Assembly: GCA_008704415.1 (NCBI GenBank)
Contig: VXIS01000029.1
Span: 124,001 to 188,000, forward strand
Source of the DNA: Sphaerosporella brunnea
Taxonomy: Eukaryota; Ascomycota; Pezizomycetes; Pezizales; Pyronemataceae
Direction of reading: 5' to 3'
DNA: 64,000 nt
Part shown: piece after piece, positions 23,405 to 63,043 of the stretch
Layout of the letters: every line of letters starts with the position of its first letter
Position numbering within the stretch: position 1 is the first letter of the stretch
The notes under the pieces: model-generated
The model's input: only the letters and a program-made list of their open reading frames with translations
What the model was told of the DNA's origin: nothing
Databases searched by the model: none
Translations under genes and position numbers: made by a program

Positions 23405-24419
23405 ATGCCTCTCTTCAGCAAAAACAAATTCCCGGTGGACGGACGTGTTTGGCTCCCTTCTCCCTTCCCCTTTCTACCCCCATGCCACGTGCAGCAGAGT
23501 GCTGACATAACCGAGCTCACAGGTAGCAGTAATTACCGGCGGTTCCCAGGGCATGGGCAAAAGCGTTGCCATCCTGCTCGCGCAAAGGGGGGCCCACGTA
23601 GCCATCATCGCCCGGAACCCGGCCAAGCTCGACAGCGCGCTCGAAGAAATCCGCGCAGCCCGTCGCTCGGCCGAACAAAAAGTGTTCCTGTACTCGGCGG
23701 ACCTTACACGGGGCGGGGAGGCGGCGGCGGCACTAGCCGCGGTGCAGGCGGAGCTCGGCACGCCGGACATCGTGTGGACCTGCGCGGGTGGCACGCAGCC
23801 AGGTTACTTCAAAGACTACTCGAGCGCGGCTTTGGAGCGGGAAATTGGAATAAACTATTTCACGGTTATGCACACGGCGCATGCGGCGCTGCGGTTGATG
23901 ACTTCGGCGGGCGCGACCGAGGATGGCCGGAAGAGGCATATCGTGTTCACGTCGTCGGTGCTGGCGTTTTATCCGATCGCTGGATACAACAGCTATTCGC
24001 CCGCGAAGGCGGCGATCCGTGCCTTGGCCGATGGATTGAGGCAGGAGTGTTTACTCTACGATATTGATGTGCATGCTTGCTTTCCAGCCACCATCTATTC
24101 TCCCGGCTTCGAGGAGGAGCAGAAGACGAAGCCGGAATTGACAAAGATACTGGAGGGATCGGACGAGGGACAGACGCCGCAGCAGGTGGCAGAGGAGTGC
24201 TTGAAAGGGTTGGAGAGAGGGGAGGCGTTGGTGACTACCACGTTGATGGGGAGCGTTATTAGGGGCTCGGCTTGGGGCGGGTCGCCAAAGGGGTTCTTCG
24301 ATACGCTCTTTGCGATGGTGCTCGTATTGGTGTGGAGTGTTGTTGGGAGGGTCGTGGATGGGGATGTTGTCAAGTACAAGAAGAAGCTGGAGAAGGAGGG
24401 GAAGGCTGATGGGAAGTGA
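23405..24419 (+). CDS. TSC10: 3-ketodihydrosphingosine reductase
   Basis: 312 aa from exons 23405-23446 and 23523-24419; the join restores VDGR|VAVITGGSQGMGK. This is the SDR of sphingolipid synthesis that reduces 3-ketodihydrosphingosine to dihydrosphingosine with NADPH at the ER. Seen: TGGSQGMG cofactor loop (residues about 19-26), ARN after the second strand, CAGG, the serine block FTSSV, and the catalytic YNSYSPAK. C-terminal features typical of the family are the PATIYSPGFEEE loop and a hydrophobic segment (FDTLFAMVLVLVWSVVG) followed by a lysine-rich tail, fitting membrane anchoring. Donor GTTTGG is weak, but phase and homology fix it. Confidence 0.88.
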
Positions 24420-47534: not shown

Positions 47535-49490
47535 TTAATCCTCCTCCTCATAATTTTGGTCAGCAGCCGGCTCCATAAAAGTTAGTGCCGCTGTATTTGG
47601 GCCCTTCTTCTTAGCGGGGGCCGGAGGGGGTGATGGCGCTTTCTCGCCCTGCTCCTCCCCGTCTTGCTCCTCCCCGCCCTGCTCCTCCCCGCCCTGCTCC
47701 TCCGCTTCCTGCTCCTCCTCTTCCTGCTCCTCCTCGCCCTGCTCCTCCTCTTCCTGCTCCTCCCCGCCCTGCTCCTCCCCGCCCTGCTCCTCCTCTTCCT
47801 GCTCCTCCTCTTCCTGCTCCTCCCCGCCCTGCTCCTCCCCGCCCTGCTCCTCCTCTTCCTGCTCCTCCCCGCCCTGCTCCTCCCCACCCTGCTCCTCCCC
47901 GCCCTGCTCCTCCTCTTCCTGCTCCTCCTCCCCCTGTTCTGGCTCATCGCCGTGGTCATTGTCATCATCGTCAGTATTTCGTCTCTTCGCTCTTGTGCCT
48001 TTTTCTCTTGTGCCTTTTTCTCTTGTGCCTTTTTCTCTTGTGCCTTTTTCTCTTGTGCCTTTTTCTCTTGTGCTTTTTTTGGCTTTCGGTAACCTGAATC
48101 CCTTCATGACAACTTGTTCGCGAGTTCTTCTCATATCGAGTTGCAAGAAAATATCCCGGAAGAGCATTCTGAGGGCCTGTACATTCCCGTTTGCATTTCT
48201 GATGCGCTCCATATTCAGTCTCTGGACTTCGTTCAAGCGCCGAGTGCTGTTTTCTCCTGACAGAATATCAACTTGCAGACGGTCTCGCCATCCAGGGTTT
48301 TCGGGTTGTGGCCAGCCAGTGGCATGGTAAAAGCGGTCGCGTAAGTCTTGCCAAGTTGCCCGACTGAAATAGTAGTGCTCTCGCTCGTCGGGATCTTCAG
48401 GGACGGTTCCATCAATCTCCTGCTGCCATAGTGCTCTGACACGGTCGCGGAGTAAATTGCCACCAATTTGTCGAAATATTTCAGCGGCGTCTGGGTCGTT
48501 GAGGAGTAAAGCCATCAGACGGATTGGCATGAAGTCGTCGACGAAACCTTCTATCCTGGTCTCAAGTTGGTCTCGCTCGGCGCGGCGAAGGCGACCAGCA
48601 AGCCGTGGATTCGCAACATGATCCGGGACGTGTCCTGGGTTTGCTAGCATTATGGCCCGGTTGGTTTCTTCGTTTTCTCTTCGCCTGCGAAGTGCAGCTT
48701 CGGCCCTCAAACTCTCTGTTTTTTCTTGGAGTGCATTCGCCTTGTCTCTCTTTTTTTGATCCCGCCGCTTCTCCGCGTCGGTTTTTTTCACAGGACGCTT
48801 TCTGCCAATTTTGGCTAACCGCGCCGCCGTTTCCCTCGCTTGGGCCTCGCCTGTCTCCTTGTTCTCCGCAACAGCAGCCTTGTGATTCGCCTCCCCAGCT
48901 TTTACCTGAAGCGCTGCTGCAATCTTTTCCAGTTGGGTTCGGCGATCGGGTTCAAGTTCGACCACGCGGTTGTCCCTGTCTTCTTGAGCGGCTGTGAGGG
49001 CATCGTCCGCCTCCTGTTGCAGTTTGTCTGCTGCTCTGCGAAGACGTTCCGCCTCTGTTTTCGGCTCGGGTGTAAGAGCCCTTGTCTCATCAGCCGCCCT
49101 CTTTTTTTGTGGGGTCTTGTTTTTGACGTCCTTTTTTTTGGGAGTCCTCCTTTTTCTGGCAGACTTCTTTTTTTCCGCGGCGGTATCGGGTTCGGGTTCG
49201 GGTTCGGGTTCAGGTTCGGGTTCAGGTTCTAGTTCAGTTTCGGGTTCGGGTTCTGGTTCAGGTTCTGGTTCAGGTTCTGGTTCATATTCGGGTTCAGGTT
49301 CTGGTTCAGATTCGGGTTCGGGTTCAGGTTCGGGTTCGGGTTCGGGTTCGGGTTCAGGTTCAGGTTCGGGGTCAGGTTGGGGTTCAGGTTGACGGGCGCG
49401 ACGAGGAGGGGGAGGTGTTTTCTGGGCACCCACACGCCTGCCCGGGGGAACGGACAACAGACCCGGCCGCTGCTGCTTCGCCGGCGGCAT
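47535..49490 (-). CDS. Repeat-built acidic/charged protein
   Basis: 651 aa from ATG at 49490 ([10 protein letters not shown]); upstream codons lack an ATG. Four zones: a Pro-Glu dipeptide array from hexanucleotide repeats (residues about 33-103); a Lys/Arg/Glu-rich coiled-coil region (about 104-300); a compact, non-repetitive domain (about 305-500, including [35 protein letters not shown], and [16 protein letters not shown]); then a GTREK pentapeptide array and a long [10 protein letters not shown] array. The globular part probably carries the conserved function, but I do not recognise it. The repeats are in frame throughout, so the gene is likely expressed despite them. Confidence 0.6.
47648..47935 (-). 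repeat. 15-bp minisatellite coding [10 protein letters not shown]
   Basis: About 19 units of CTGCTCCTCCCCGCC / CTGCTCCTCCTCTTC on the plus strand, alternating two variants. Confidence 0.92.
47989..48079 (-). repeat. 15-bp minisatellite coding GTREK
   Basis: Six units of TTTTTCTCTTGTGCC on the plus strand, the central ones identical. Confidence 0.92.
49183..49395 (-). repeat. Hexanucleotide array (TTCGGG/TTCAGG/TTCTGG) coding Pro-Glu
   Basis: About 35 units on the plus strand, keeping the E-P dipeptide frame on the minus strand. Superficially telomere-like, but the fungal telomere unit is TTAGGG. Confidence 0.9.
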
Positions 49491-50570
49491 GGTGGATGTT
49501 TTAGCTGATATTTCGGTGCGAGTTCCTTCCTGGGAGTCTTTCTGTGTCGCTAATCTGGTTTGCGTTGAGAGAAGTTTGCCGTTGTGGACATGTTGGCTGA
49601 GCCGTACATATATCGACCAGTCGTGTTCAAGTTGTGCCGGTGGGCCCAAACAATGTGCTTGAACTTAGATGTCTGTCTAGCTGTCATGTCCAAAAACGAA
49701 AGGTGTCATTGACCACCGGGTTGTGCAAATCGGAAGTCGTTTGGAATGAGTTAGTGTATTTGCCATTGTAGAAACGCCTATATCTCATGCCGAAAGTCAA
49801 TAAGGAATGCTGCCACTGCTGCTTGCCCGTGGGGATCATGAGGATATTGCTCCCAAATCGCAGACCCTCAGCAGAGCGAAGAGATGTTAGTGATGAAAGA
49901 GCTGCCAAAGCGATGTGTTGTCCCTTGACACGCACTTCCTTCCCTTGACCAATCTAACACCTGTCACGGAAGATAACTACGCGGAACGGAGACTGAATAC
50001 AAACTGTCAGATACAAGGTGGAACACACGGCCGACCCCGACTACAACGTTGTCAGGTTCAAATTGATCGCGTCTTCTAGTGTTGAAGGCCGGCGGTTCGA
50101 ATTGTGCCAGCCACCAGGCTTAGTTTCTTCTATTGTGCCTAGGTAGCAGAATTGTGCATATACAATACGTCCGGCCATTTCTGAAGGCCTGTTTAGTTGT
50201 TGAAGTGGCAAATATAGGTAGTAACTTATAGTAAAAAGAAACAGGTGGATCTGCACCGTGCATGTGCTATAGATGGACAGCCGCTTTCTGGATCGACCTA
50301 TTTCGTCCTAGAGCACGTTCTCTGGCTTTCATGATACCTACTGGATGCAAACGACCTGTTGACAGAATCACTTTTGATGCATACGGTCGACGGAATCGTC
50401 ACGATGTGGAGCCCCCAGTTTACAAACAGGAAGCAGTATTTATTGAAAATTCGGGCAGTAAATGTGGATTATCGCATCGCATGCCAGCAGATTCCAGACA
50501 GCGAAACAAGACCAAACGGGCAATCAGATCAAGAACAAACAAGCCACACCCGTGACGGTAAGACCAAAAC
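49491..50570. other. Intergenic, nothing recognised
   Basis: Short frames on both strands without family similarity. A GGTTCGAAT string near 50093 resembles a tRNA T-loop, but no matching acceptor or anticodon arms are present. Confidence 0.4.
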
Positions 50571-58395: not shown

Positions 58396-58845
58396 TTAAT
58401 ATTCCACGCACTCGTAGAATACCTCCTCATCGTCGGTGCCCTCATCCTGTGCCATACAGGTCTCCGGCTCTCTCGTACGTTCCAGCGCCGAAAACCCCCC
58501 TTCATCGAGCCGAGCCTTGATTTTCTCAATCTCGAGCTCCAGCTGCCCAATCTTTTGGACAATCCTCTCGATTTCTGGCTTTTCCGGGAAGCTGGGACCG
58601 CCATCCCCTGGCTGTCTTGCCCAACCGAGCCGCGGGTCGGTGGCTACGCTAGATCCCTTTTTCCGTTGCGTACGACGTCCATTGCTGTCCGCCTCTGGCG
58701 CACTTAGCTTGCTCTGGATGGCGGCAGAGCTCGAACAGTGGTCCAAAGAGCTGCGGGGCGTCCTATAGGTCTTGTTGGACCTGTGGAAAGCCTCTTCGTA
58801 GGTGATGGAGTCGTATGGCGAGGACTCGCTTTCCTGTTGTGACAT
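58396..58845 (-). CDS. Small coiled-coil protein
   Basis: 149 aa, ATG at 58845 (MSQQESESSPYDS). It is Ser/Thr-rich at the start, with a predicted coiled coil near residues 90-117 (PEIERIVQKIGQLELEIEKI), and an acidic, tyrosine-containing tail (DDEEVFYECVEY). The frame is open upstream to 59049 but that part lacks similar composition. No family recognised. Confidence 0.5.
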   Translation of the reverse strand: MSQQESESSPYDSITYEEAFHRSNKTYRTPRSSLDHCSSSAAIQSKLSAPEADSNGRRTQRKKGSSVATDPRLGWARQPGDGGPSFPEKPEIERIVQKIGQLELEIEKIKARLDEGGFSALERTREPETCMAQDEGTDDEEVFYECVEY

Positions 58846-59517
58846 AAATATGTGAGAGATGGTTGGACGGCTGGTATGGTAGAAGGTGACGCTGTTTATA
58901 GCTGTACCTACACTGCTGGAAAGCAACCGTTGCTCTTCAAGTTGGCAGTCGTAATCCGGAAATTGGGCGGGGACACTAGCGACATCACAGCTACTGGGGG
59001 TGTATATCCGAGTCTTCTGGACATACATGTTGTTCGTGATGGAAAACACTAGCTAAAGACCCCCCAAAAGCGCTCAAAGAGTCATCTGTAGAAGAAAAGA
59101 AAAAGGCAACTTCCAATTCTGCGGGTATCAAGCAGAAACAGAAAAGAAAAAGAAAAAATCGCCGGCAAGCGAAGCCGCATGCGCTTTGGGGGACAGTGCT
59201 CGGCTGCACAAGAAACCGGGCTGGCTGTTTGGACTGTTTGTCACGCGCGATGGCAGTGTTATCAAGATACGTTAATTCCCCTGGCAAGAAGACCTTTGAT
59301 AGTGAGTTGGGATAATTTCTCTGGTCCCGATTCACTGGAGAGCACTCCTTCTTTCAATGCCGGCCCAGATGCAGGCTTCGAAACCGTGCTGTATCAAGAC
59401 ATCCGGCAGGCTATCACGACCACTGGTTCCAAAGGAAATTTCTGGATGTAGTGTACATAGTCGAGATGATCTATCTATCTTACACGGTGTCAAAAGTTGC
59501 CTAAAACTCCATGGCAT
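58846..59517. other. Intergenic, nothing recognised
   Basis: Between the small coiled-coil gene and the 3' end of the nuclease-ATPase gene. Confidence 0.5.
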
Positions 59518-62500
59518 TTAAGCCTTCAACCAATATTCGGTCTCCCCGCCTCTTGTTTTCTGGACCTGAATCACCCTTCCTCCAGCGACCTCTCTGTGGG
59601 TCAACAAAAACGCCCTGCCGCCCTCACTTCTTAAATACGCTGCCAGCCACGATCGCAAACCCTCCAACCCCGCCTCATCCAGCGCATCGATGATCTCGTC
59701 CATAAACAAAAAGCTGGGCCGGAAGGGCATTCTCGCGCGGGCGGTGACAAACATCGCTAAGAACAGGGTAAGGTATGTCCTAGTCAATTGCCCGCGACTT
59801 CTGCGGGCAAGCGACAACGCGCCAGGAGAAGGAAGCAGCCGAAAGTCCGGGGTGAGCTTGAAGTCGAGCAGTTGTTCGGTCGAGAGAAGTTGCTCCGAGT
59901 CCGCACAAAGTTCTTTCAGAATGGACGGGATGAGCACATTGATGTGAGCCACGTACGCACTGCGGCAGTGTGTCAGAAAGGCACCCTTGTTTCGCTCCGA
60001 GTCTTGGAGTTGGCTCTTCCAGAAAGTGGCGAGTTCCAGGGTACTCTCTTTCTCGGCGAGTTCGCTACGCACTCTGGACAACTGTAGCTCCAATTGCGTC
60101 TCGAGGGTAGCGCAATTCTTCAGCCGCTTCAGGTGGTCTGAACGCTGGCTGGCAATCAGCTTAAGTTGACCATCTGCAGAAGATACTGTTAGTTCCAAGG
60201 AGCTGATGGACTGGTCCAACTTTTTCGCCTTCGTCACCGGATCTCTGAGAGCTTGTGATATCGATCTCTCGCGATTCAACACCTCCTGGAGGAGTCGTTG
60301 CTGCTCTGAGATCACGTGTGCCACCGCATCAACTTTTTGCAGGATGTATTCGTGAAGATGCCGATCATAAAACGGAGGCTCGGGAATAGGAACGGGGACC
60401 GCATCATTACTTGCTTTCTCTGGCCGTAATGTCAGTACAATTCACAGAAATTACGAGGCTAATCATTACCATCTGTAGACATATCCGCTTCCGGGGGTGA
60501 AACTCCCAAGAAGGTCTTGATACTCGAAAAAACGGATCTGACTAAAGACAAGAAGATTTGAGTTGGCTCCTTCATCCTTCTCTCCTCAGCTTCGCGGGCT
60601 TCGCGAGCCTCCCTAGCCGCTCGCTCAGCAGCTTTTTCGGCCATCATTTTCTGCCTGAAAAATTCGTCGACATCTGACCTGTCTCTCTCATGAGGCTTCG
60701 TTGCCGCAATGAATTTTTGTTGCTTTTTGGACCAAGTCTGTAACACTTTTGACACCGCCTGTTTCTCTCGATCAACGGCATCAAGCAGAGCTTGTTGTTC
60801 AGCAATGACTCGTTGGAACTCTAGCCGCTGCGGTCGTAACCTCTCGATTTCGGCCCGAGATTTGGTAGCTTCGACTTGTAGTTGCTTCTCCCTCTGCTCT
60901 TCTTTCTGAAGCTCGGTCTTTCGGGAATCCCATTGACGTCTGTTCTCCGAGATCTGGGTTTTCAGCCCGAACTCTCGGCTCTTTCGTTCAGTAATCAAGC
61001 TTTGAAGTTCCTATAAATGAACCGTCAGTTCCCTTCCATAATAACAAAAGTTGTTGTATAATACCTTCATCATGACAGACAGCTCTTCCCGCATCTGACC
61101 AAGGAAATCTAGTCCAAACATTGCGTCCAAACATTCCGTTCTTCCTTTGTCTCCTGCCGCACGAACAAAGTATTCAGCGTTATCTCCAATAACAACAGTC
61201 TGCTTGAACATCGAGAGATCCATGTGGAGAATGTTCTCCATCAAGTAGGCTGTGTTGGAGGTGGTATCATGTCCATGCTCTTCCAGATTTCCATCCGGCC
61301 CGAAAATTTGGAAGGCAACCTTCTTGATCTTCCCTTTCCCACGTCGCGACCGTTCAAATTGGTAGCCGTTTCGGAACCGCAGACGGACGAAACAATCGGG
61401 GGAGTTATTGAAAGAGATTTCGTCAACGGGGACTGCATTACGTTTACCGGCCAGGAACTCTCCAAACAAACACCATACTGACTTTGAGATTAACAAGATA
61501 CTATGCAATAAATGGCAGGATAAATACCTATTGATTCTATGAGCGTAGACTTTCCGGAACCATTGGCACCGGATATCAAGAATACCTCCGAAGCCGGTAA
61601 TGCATCAAGATTGATCAAGGTAGTTCCCTTAAGGCCTCGGAAGTTCTTCATTTCGATGGACACCAGATCGCCCTGGAAAACACTACCCATCGCTTTCGTT
61701 TGCGGAGACTTTTGCTGGTACGGCTTCATGAAATCTAGGAAGAAATCCCGGCGTTTTTCATCCAATGAGATTGAGTTTGAGTCAAGTAGTTGAGATGATC
61801 TCATTTCCATGAATGACATTACCATGTCATGAATGGTATCACCAAGCGTAACAGGTGCTGGAGTCTCGCCTTTTAATGTGCTCAAGGAGGCTTCTGGCAC
61901 GACAGGCTCCGTGCCTTCGAATGAGGTCTCCACCATGTCTGCCCCGAATGCGTACAGAATTTCCCTGGCCTTTGTCACTTCCACCGCTGAAGCATCGACA
62001 TCCACCAAAAGCCGTATTTTCTTCCCAGCAACAATACTTCCATCAATTTCCGACGCTTCCTGCAGTGGCAGCTTGATAAAATGTTCCGCAAAAGGATTAC
62101 GATGCAATTTCCAAACGTCTCGTGAAGGTATATAGCTGACAAGCCCCCGCTCCGTATCGCCGGCATCTCCCATATTCGATTGTATCGGAGACCCCACATA
62201 GACAGCCTTGGATCCGGGGCCACCAACAGGGCCGTGTGTGTGGAAATGCCCAAGGAAAACCTGCTTGTACTTCTCCAGATTGTGTGGAGAAACCTCCGCA
62301 TTATCGCACGGCTTGTGACTGTTCATGAGGGCGCCATTCACGGGACCATGATAGAACGCAACAGTATTGTGGGAGGCGGTCTCGGTGATGTACTTTCTCA
62401 CAGTCTGATCGTCATTATGGAATGGAATGAATACAGTGGGGTAATTGTCGAGTGTCTGAGTAGTTGTTTCCGCATAGACGTGGATCCTTCCAGAGACAAG

Positions 62501-63043
62501 GCGGAACGGTTGAAGCGAGTTATCTTGACGGTTGAATCGGTTCTTCATGTCACTGGAGAGAACCGTGTTAGTTTGTGCACTTACAATTGGCCGCACATAG
62601 ATGCGGGAAACTGTACATATGGGGGCTAAAGAAACTCACTGATTCCCAACCAAAAGATGAACCTGTGGAGACCACGGAGCTGAGATGATGCGTTCCAAAA
62701 TCTCGGTGAAATACCGGTGGTGGCGAGGATCCGTACCCCCACGAATATGGAAGGTGTCACCAAGAAAGAGTACTTGCGAAGGCTGGTAGGTCTCGAACTC
62801 CTTGAAGAAAAAGTTGTTGAAGAATACATCAAGCCGTGGCAAAGTCTTCTCCGCGATGTGTGTGTCTGCAAGTAGAAACCAGATGGGCTCATGCGCTGGC
62901 CGTCCAGTGTGAGAGATTGCGGTAGCGATTCGGCGACACTGGAGCCCTACAAACGGAACATGTCTGCGCGGGAGTTGTCGAGACCGAACGGCGCAAATTC
63001 CAGTGCCTGCTATAGCATTGGATGGTAGATGGCGTAGTTTCAT
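59518..63043 (-). CDS. SbcD-SbcC (Mre11-Rad50-like) fusion protein, probable mitochondrial
   Basis: 1,094 aa from exons 63043-62640, 62552-61528, 61477-61065, 61010-60470 and 60419-59518, all in phase. Residues 1-45 are Arg-rich without acidic residues, like a mitochondrial presequence. A metallophosphoesterase (Mre11/SbcD type) follows: ADTHI (59-63), LGDTFH (94-99), GNHD (133-136, completed by splicing), YHGP (202-205) and GHFHTH (236-241). Next comes an SbcC/Rad50-type ATPase: Walker A GANGSGKST (463-471), Q-loop FKQTVVIG (567-574), coiled coils about 615-750 and 820-935, an ABC-signature region LSLARRSRGQLTR (about 996-1008), Walker B FLFMDEIIDALD and an H-loop THRE. Expected activity is ATP-driven processing of DNA ends; a role in organellar DNA is inferred. 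No CxxC zinc hook is present between the coils. Confidence 0.85.

Follow-up and report, generated by a model that had tools for sequence, protein, structure and literature searches.

Fusions of the nuclease Mre11 and the ATPase Rad50 within one protein were described in 2011 for Mimivirus (R555), five bacteria and a Bacillus phage, with plasmids of Clostridium kluyveri among the carriers (Yoshida, Claverie and Ogata 2011; PMC3175470). In addition, eukaryotic cases were listed for a moss (Physcomitrella), slime moulds (Dictyostelium, Polysphondylium), a diatom (Phaeodactylum) and two prasinophytes (Micromonas). These fusions are not monophyletic and were argued to be viral in origin (PMC3175470). 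No fungal fusion is named in the available part of that paper, where no word beginning with "fung", "hook" or "organell" occurs and yeast appears only for the canonical Mre11/Rad50. Here we describe such a gene from the ascomycete Sphaerosporella brunnea (Pezizales), located in a stretch of 64,000 nucleotides (the window; contig VXIS01000029.1, positions 124,001 to 188,000). Since Mre11/Rad50 fusions were described in 2011 (PMC3175470), the fusion itself is not a discovery, and the novelty which an earlier note on this DNA implied for a eukaryotic fusion is lost to the moss, slime-mould, diatom and prasinophyte cases. The product is read here, with about an even chance of being right, as a one-chain T4-type (gp47-gp46) DNA-end nuclease beside the nuclear Mre11-Rad50, which in this fungus would probably be mitochondrial and process the ends of mitochondrial DNA (mtDNA).

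The gene occupies positions 59518..63043 of the minus strand and comprises five exons and four introns of 87, 50, 54 and 50 nucleotides, all with GT..AG borders. Its spliced frame of 1094 amino acids contains no internal stop, the region between the nuclease and ATPase halves included. Judged by its sequence, the gene is real and encodes an Mre11/SbcD nuclease followed by a Rad50/SbcC ATPase within one chain; the earlier note was right in coordinates, strand and all four introns, and its order of SbcD before SbcC in a single frame is borne out by the intact reading frame. A search of the genome (50.6 Mb, 640 contigs), in which only the best candidates were scored, found no second copy, all five matches being exons of the present gene. 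A sequence search of the PDB with the query gave weak Rad50 matches only (best E 0.017).

Conservation was read from an alignment of the query with 22 relatives. All five Mre11/SbcD phosphoesterase motifs seen earlier are present and conserved: D60/H62, G95-D96, G133-N-H-D136, H203 and G236-H-F-H-T-H241 vary little or not at all, T240 excepted. The region which follows the nuclease domain may act as a capping and Rad50-binding region, as suggested by homology to Mre11; the structure model of the Tricharina homologue (P0001) has helices at 348-361, 368-381 and 383-388 in the equivalent part. In the ATPase half Walker A, S1002-x-G1004, D1035-E1036, the D-loop and H1069 are conserved, and the coiled coils, the signature-like region, Walker B and the H-loop were rightly recognised before. 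The first coiled-coil arm corresponds in the alignment to helix 572-715 in the model of P0001 (residues 601-744 of the query), its end to about residue 754 being extended by eye, and the second arm with helix 777-894 (query 814-931). The motifs of an ABC-type ATPase are thus found, but the signature is non-canonical and the Q-loop claimed earlier lacks its canonical Gln: VIGDNAEYF of the query aligns with LLSQGQF of Escherichia coli SbcC.

With regard to known families the query matches PHROG 100 (SbcD-like, E 1.3e-37) and PHROG 77 (SbcC-like, E 5.7e-41), which correspond to T4-type gp47 and gp46, and the profile search proposed in the earlier note thereby comes out positive for both halves. 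Profiles built from the family for the nuclease and for the N-terminal part of the ATPase were used to score phage, bacterial and own-genome proteins. The nuclease profile gave 69-116 bits for four phage gp47, 12-33 for eight bacterial SbcD and -2 for the own MRE11; the ATPase profile gave 67.5 and 81.5 bits for two phage gp46, 45-64 for seven bacterial SbcC-like proteins, 11 for the own RAD50 and no score for the sequence L112. The own MRE11 and RAD50 entered profiles and trees as approximate exon joins, by which their scores may be somewhat lowered. The canonical SbcC model TIGR00618 (NCBIfam) reached 46.8 bits, far under its curated cut-off of 478.5, and the canonical SbcD model TIGR00619 was not among the matches listed for the query (25 of 33 NCBIfam families). 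T4-type gp47/gp46 is the best match of the profiles tested, clearly for the nuclease and narrowly for the ATPase. Bacterial SbcCD, the main comparison of the earlier note, holds for the domain types but fits less well than the phage proteins.

For the trees 26 of the 142 family members were picked by hand. They form one clade in the nuclease tree (98/89) and in the ATPase tree (99), where its position with respect to bacterial SbcC and to the Listeria phage is not firm. The nuclease trees contain two bacterial SbcD rows, as a motif filter took one of seven bacterial loci (all seven were scored by profile); three long rows (P0023, P0024, L083) were left out of the careful nuclease tree. A tblastn search matched 2509 phage records, in none of which a single place covered 80 % of the query. 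In a second scan of viral sequences, made with the Sordariomycete alignment, 78 new loci came up and no open reading frame (ORF) passed the fused test. A scan of genome contigs gave a single locus, a gp46/gp47-like pair in a Rhodobacteraceae bin (L100, FZLS01000007.1), which groups with the viral contig L058 in both trees and is probably a phage sequence in a bacterial bin. Eight plasmid records of Klebsiella, Enterobacter and Acinetobacter (H101-H108, about 108-118 kb) carry adjacent genes for a family-like metallophosphoesterase and an AAA ATPase, or for two exonucleases; they are possibly phage-plasmids.

The nuclear enzymes are encoded elsewhere in the same genome. MRE11 is present at C422 (PF00149 39.4 bits, PF04152 206 bits) and RAD50 at C291 (3e-84 against a RAD50 of known structure), each as a separate gene, in agreement with the earlier claim that the fusion is distinct from the nuclear MRX complex. 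A CLLC motif occurs at the RAD50 locus, and the frame carrying it has a weak alignment (E 0.77) to residues 661-702 of a solved RAD50; in the PDB search with this hook frame endonuclease VII zinc regions (E 0.003) stood above RAD50, and in Pfam the frame by itself had no match.

Among named species the closest homologues, similar in length, are those of Tricharina praecox (60 % identity over 95 % of the query), Trichophaea hybrida (51 % over 95 %) and Geopyxis carbonaria (40 % over 62 %). The Nemania homologue matched 247 proteins, 120 of which form the Sordariomycete set; among these listed matches are Xylaria, Nemania, Fusarium, Trichoderma, Clonostachys, Chaetomium, Gaeumannomyces, Cytospora, Daldinia and others. 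By these matches the fused family is widespread in filamentous ascomycetes. A distinct clade of single-ORF members with hydrophobic apex segments is made up of metagenome proteins (P0005-P0020). Three database models (P0161, P0144, P0170) are longer; one of them carries the name cytochrome P450, the other two extend the N-terminus by more than 150 amino acids, and all three are probably annotation fusions. Among the titles and abstract openings listed by a literature search, with subscription journals mostly outside it, none dealt with an SbcDC fusion in fungi or with an SbcC/Rad50 that lacks the hook.

The oddest feature of the family, not mentioned in the earlier note and deserving follow-up more than the fusion, is the apex of the coiled coil. 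From 142 proteins examined P0107 was dropped; in all 141 usable members, the query included, the centre of the coiled coil lacks a CxxC zinc hook, whereas CxxC was found there in 135 of 141 usable relatives of phage, bacterial, metagenomic or SMC-like type. Of the six relatives without CxxC, at least three bear chromosome-segregation or SMC names (P0075, P0087, P0091). In the second viral scan all usable SbcC-like ORFs (59 of 59) contained CxxC. Instead of a hook most members have a hydrophobic segment: a 19-residue window with a Kyte-Doolittle mean of at least 0.8 was found in 115 of 141 family proteins (median 1.10) versus 10 of 141 others (median 0.02). The family proteins are not independent, as many come from congeners and the set consists mainly of two ascomycete groups and one metagenome clade, with P0021 isolated. 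The segment of the query is QIFLSLVRSVFSSIKTFL (residues 765-782), with a hydrophobic moment of 0.54 and a charge of +2 in the best 19-residue window. An apex helix is drawn in both structure models, at 732-750 in P0001 and at 779-802 in a Fusarium protein (P0160), whose hydrophobic segment begins at residue 789 within this helix. A retained intron was considered for the apex and rejected, since the single-ORF metagenome proteins also have a hydrophobic centre.

Several other explanations of the locus have to be weighed. Two genes or a mis-spliced model, giving separate SbcD-like and SbcC-like products, would resemble the gene arrangement of T4 and KVP40, but the frame passes from one half to the other without a stop, the annotation of many fungal homologues puts the same domains in one protein, and the metagenome contigs have single ORFs; separate genes were rejected on these grounds and are hardly credible. 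That the protein is an inactive relic is very improbable: its signature and Q-loop are non-canonical, but metal-site and Walker residues are kept in both alignments made. The origin of the halves is less plainly settled by the trees, and here begin the points that weigh against our reading. The preference of the ATPase for phages is narrow (T4 67.5 bits versus 64.4 for the best bacterial protein), and in the phylogeny asked for by the earlier note, which did unite the family in both halves, a nuclease clade held with the own MRE11 was not rejected (p-AU 0.187), like one held with T4-like phages (p-AU 0.084); placement with the two bacterial SbcD was weakly rejected (p-AU 0.03). Descent from the nuclear MRE11-RAD50 genes by duplication and fusion would agree with the first of these values. 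However, the family profiles hardly score the own proteins, even allowing for approximate exon pieces, and score phage proteins at 67-116 bits, so that such a descent is very unlikely and phage-type ancestry, although unproven by the tree, seems the better reading.

The site of action is more open to dispute. Residues 1-51 of the query contain eight Arg, one Lys and neither Asp nor Glu (net charge +9), a composition compatible with a mitochondrial presequence, and as the second Met of the frame is residue 137, the extension could not be skipped without loss of the catalytic motifs I-III. Geopyxis (P0003) has a 58-residue extension free of acidic residues, and that of Trichophaea (P0002) is rich in Arg, with two Asp at the end; if the annotated start is right, it has four more acidic residues. 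Acid-free windows made up 19 of 21,931 internal windows, although the control proteins are rich in coiled coils and so an unfair null for N-termini. On the other side, the annotated extension of Tricharina is short (25 amino acids, two Asp), 108 of the 120 Sordariomycete-set proteins start no more than 18 residues before the core motif, with recurrent forms such as MRGPSASTVRWL (five start further upstream and seven have no recognisable motif near the start), and 14 of 16 proteins of the metagenome clade start at MWH or MMWH without a long extension. The Arg-rich extension is seen in Pezizales only. Because most proteins of these two groups lack it, the enzyme may originally have acted outside mitochondria. 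The targeting proposed in the earlier note therefore stands as likely import of the query protein and falls as a family property; import is probably lineage-specific, unless other members use another signal. The same enzyme could also serve throughout the family in nucleus or cytosol, in accessory end-processing or against foreign DNA, with the Pezizales extension being no presequence or a lineage-specific re-targeting; the short Sordariomycete starts favour this, the acid-free extension of the query and the comparable ones of Geopyxis and Trichophaea speak against it, and we regard it as a serious but lesser possibility. Similar doubt surrounds the apex, where 26 of 141 members have a mean below 0.8 (ten below 0.6, e.g. 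Geopyxis P0003 with 0.16 and P0021 with 0.51) and the apex helix is modelled with a pLDDT of about 49 (P0001) and about 50-71 (P0160). The hook is treated as a stable dimerisation module of Rad50/SbcC, and fission yeast Rad50 still works with an SMC hinge in its place (available part of PMC6969161). Because any stable dimeriser may thus serve, a zinc-free hydrophobic dimeriser is plausible by analogy, and it is an evenly balanced matter whether the apex is a dimerisation interface only, free of membrane contact. Segments like YLIPFISTVLYVGIQISWF (P0010, mean 1.49) are hydrophobic enough for a bilayer, without being decisive, and in our reading the zinc-free apex is possibly membrane-binding. 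Membrane insertion is the bolder option, and its fullest form is rather unlikely: a phage-derived one-chain SbcDC of filamentous ascomycetes that traded the hook for a membrane-inserting apex and in Pezizales is tethered to the mitochondrial inner membrane at mtDNA nucleoids as a T4-like recombination and replication machine.

From active-site motifs that stand in the sequence itself we infer activity, partner and place of the T4-type end nuclease as follows. Two chains would pair through a Mre11-like dimer interface, the ATPase heads and the zinc-free hydrophobic apex. ATP would open and close the heads, thus admitting DNA ends or hairpins, which the metal-dependent nuclease would trim or cut. 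In the Pezizales lineage the protein would probably be imported into mitochondria and prepare, or help to prepare, mtDNA ends for repair and for replication of the recombination-dependent (T4-like, rolling-circle) type. It would act there before the annealing protein Mgm101, which is encoded in the same genome. T4 gp46/47 readies DNA ends for strand invasion and is required for recombination-dependent replication, and parallels of T4 metabolism with mitochondrial DNA are stressed in the accessible text of a review (PMC3016281). For yeast mitochondria, Din7 is credited with the resection of ends, and the Rad52-related Mgm101 takes part in recombination (PMC7288456, in part). If the mitochondrial reading is true, fungal mtDNA, whose metabolism is likened to that of T4 (PMC3016281), would have a T4-type end-processing enzyme. 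A natural family in which the hook is absent from all 141 usable members and mostly replaced by a hydrophobic segment is a ready experiment on the function of the coiled-coil tip; with members in Trichoderma, Fusarium and Chaetomium, genera with laboratory genetics, the ideas on apex and mitochondria can be tested.

Table 1 Features of the fusion gene, in positions of the window
Feature	Residues	Position	Strand	Remark
Exons		63043-62640, 62552-61528, 61477-61065, 61010-60470, 60419-59518	minus	
Arg-rich N-terminal extension	1-53	62885..63043	minus	mitochondrial-presequence-like
Nuclease domain	54-290	62087..62884	minus	interrupted by intron 62639-62553
Motif I	D60-T-H62	62858..62866	minus	alignment
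Motif II	G95-D-T-F98	62750..62761	minus	alignment
Motif III	G133-N-H-D136	62549..62647	minus	split by intron 1
Motif IV	H203	62348..62350	minus	alignment
Motif V	G236-H-F-H-T-H241	62234..62251	minus	alignment
Capping-like and helical (Rad50-binding-like) region with linker	291-424	61685..62086	minus	
Walker A	S462-GANGSGK-S470	61547..61573	minus	alignment
Q-loop equivalent	V571-V-I-G-D-N576	61179..61196	minus	canonical Gln absent
First coiled-coil arm	about 601-754	60591..61106	minus	interrupted by intron 61064-61011
Hydrophobic amphipathic apex segment	Q765-L782	60507..60560	minus	in place of zinc hook
Second coiled-coil arm	about 818-931	60010..60351	minus	
Signature-like motif	R1000-RSRGQ1005	59788..59805	minus	
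Walker B	F1031-LFMDE1036	59695..59712	minus	alignment
D-loop	D1039-ALD1042	59677..59688	minus	alignment
H-loop	H1069	59596..59598	minus	alignment

From the rest of the window ten long open frames were scanned with Pfam, and no match named a DNA-repair protein. Four of these frames matched with an E value of 0.01 or less, and in a single one the match exceeded its cut-off: a short-chain dehydrogenase (23511-24416, plus strand; PF00106, 2.5e-38). A long ORF on the minus strand (47541-49664) has a low-complexity match to PF05887 well under cut-off, and the overlapping frame 47585-48103 contains KKAQE-type tandem repeats. Just downstream of the fusion gene lies a 218-amino-acid open frame (58399-59052, minus strand) with no Pfam match above cut-off.

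Compared with known systems, the family resembles by description the fusions of 2011, which also place Mre11/SbcD before Rad50/SbcC, have non-canonical sequences and coexist with separate canonical genes, as here, in all listed cellular hosts except Deferribacter (PMC3175470, available part). The gp47/gp46 proteins of T4 and its relatives (KVP40, cyanophages) have the best family-profile scores among those tested and the same order, 47 then 46; T4 gp46 shares with the family the sequence FKQ-x-V-V and, like the query, lacks the Gln at the Q-loop position. Unlike the fungal fusion, T4 and KVP40 have separate genes, and CxxC, absent from the fungal family, is present in gp46 of T4 (residue 288), KVP40 and S-BM3. 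The recombination exonuclease of Listeria phage LMTA-57 (KJ591605) has both halves in one chain of 1009 amino acids, like the fungal protein, and was second in a viral structure search, although the overall structural overlap is low (TM 0.38-0.39); unlike the family it has CxxC at the coiled-coil centre. SbcCD of E. coli is a nuclease for hairpins and DNA ends, alike in domain types and fold, but encoded by separate genes, with lower family-profile scores (29 and 52 bits) and, in contrast to the fungal family, one CxxC in SbcC (residue 506 of 1048). The own nuclear MRE11-RAD50 has a similar general architecture, but is encoded by separate genes and barely recognised by the family profiles.

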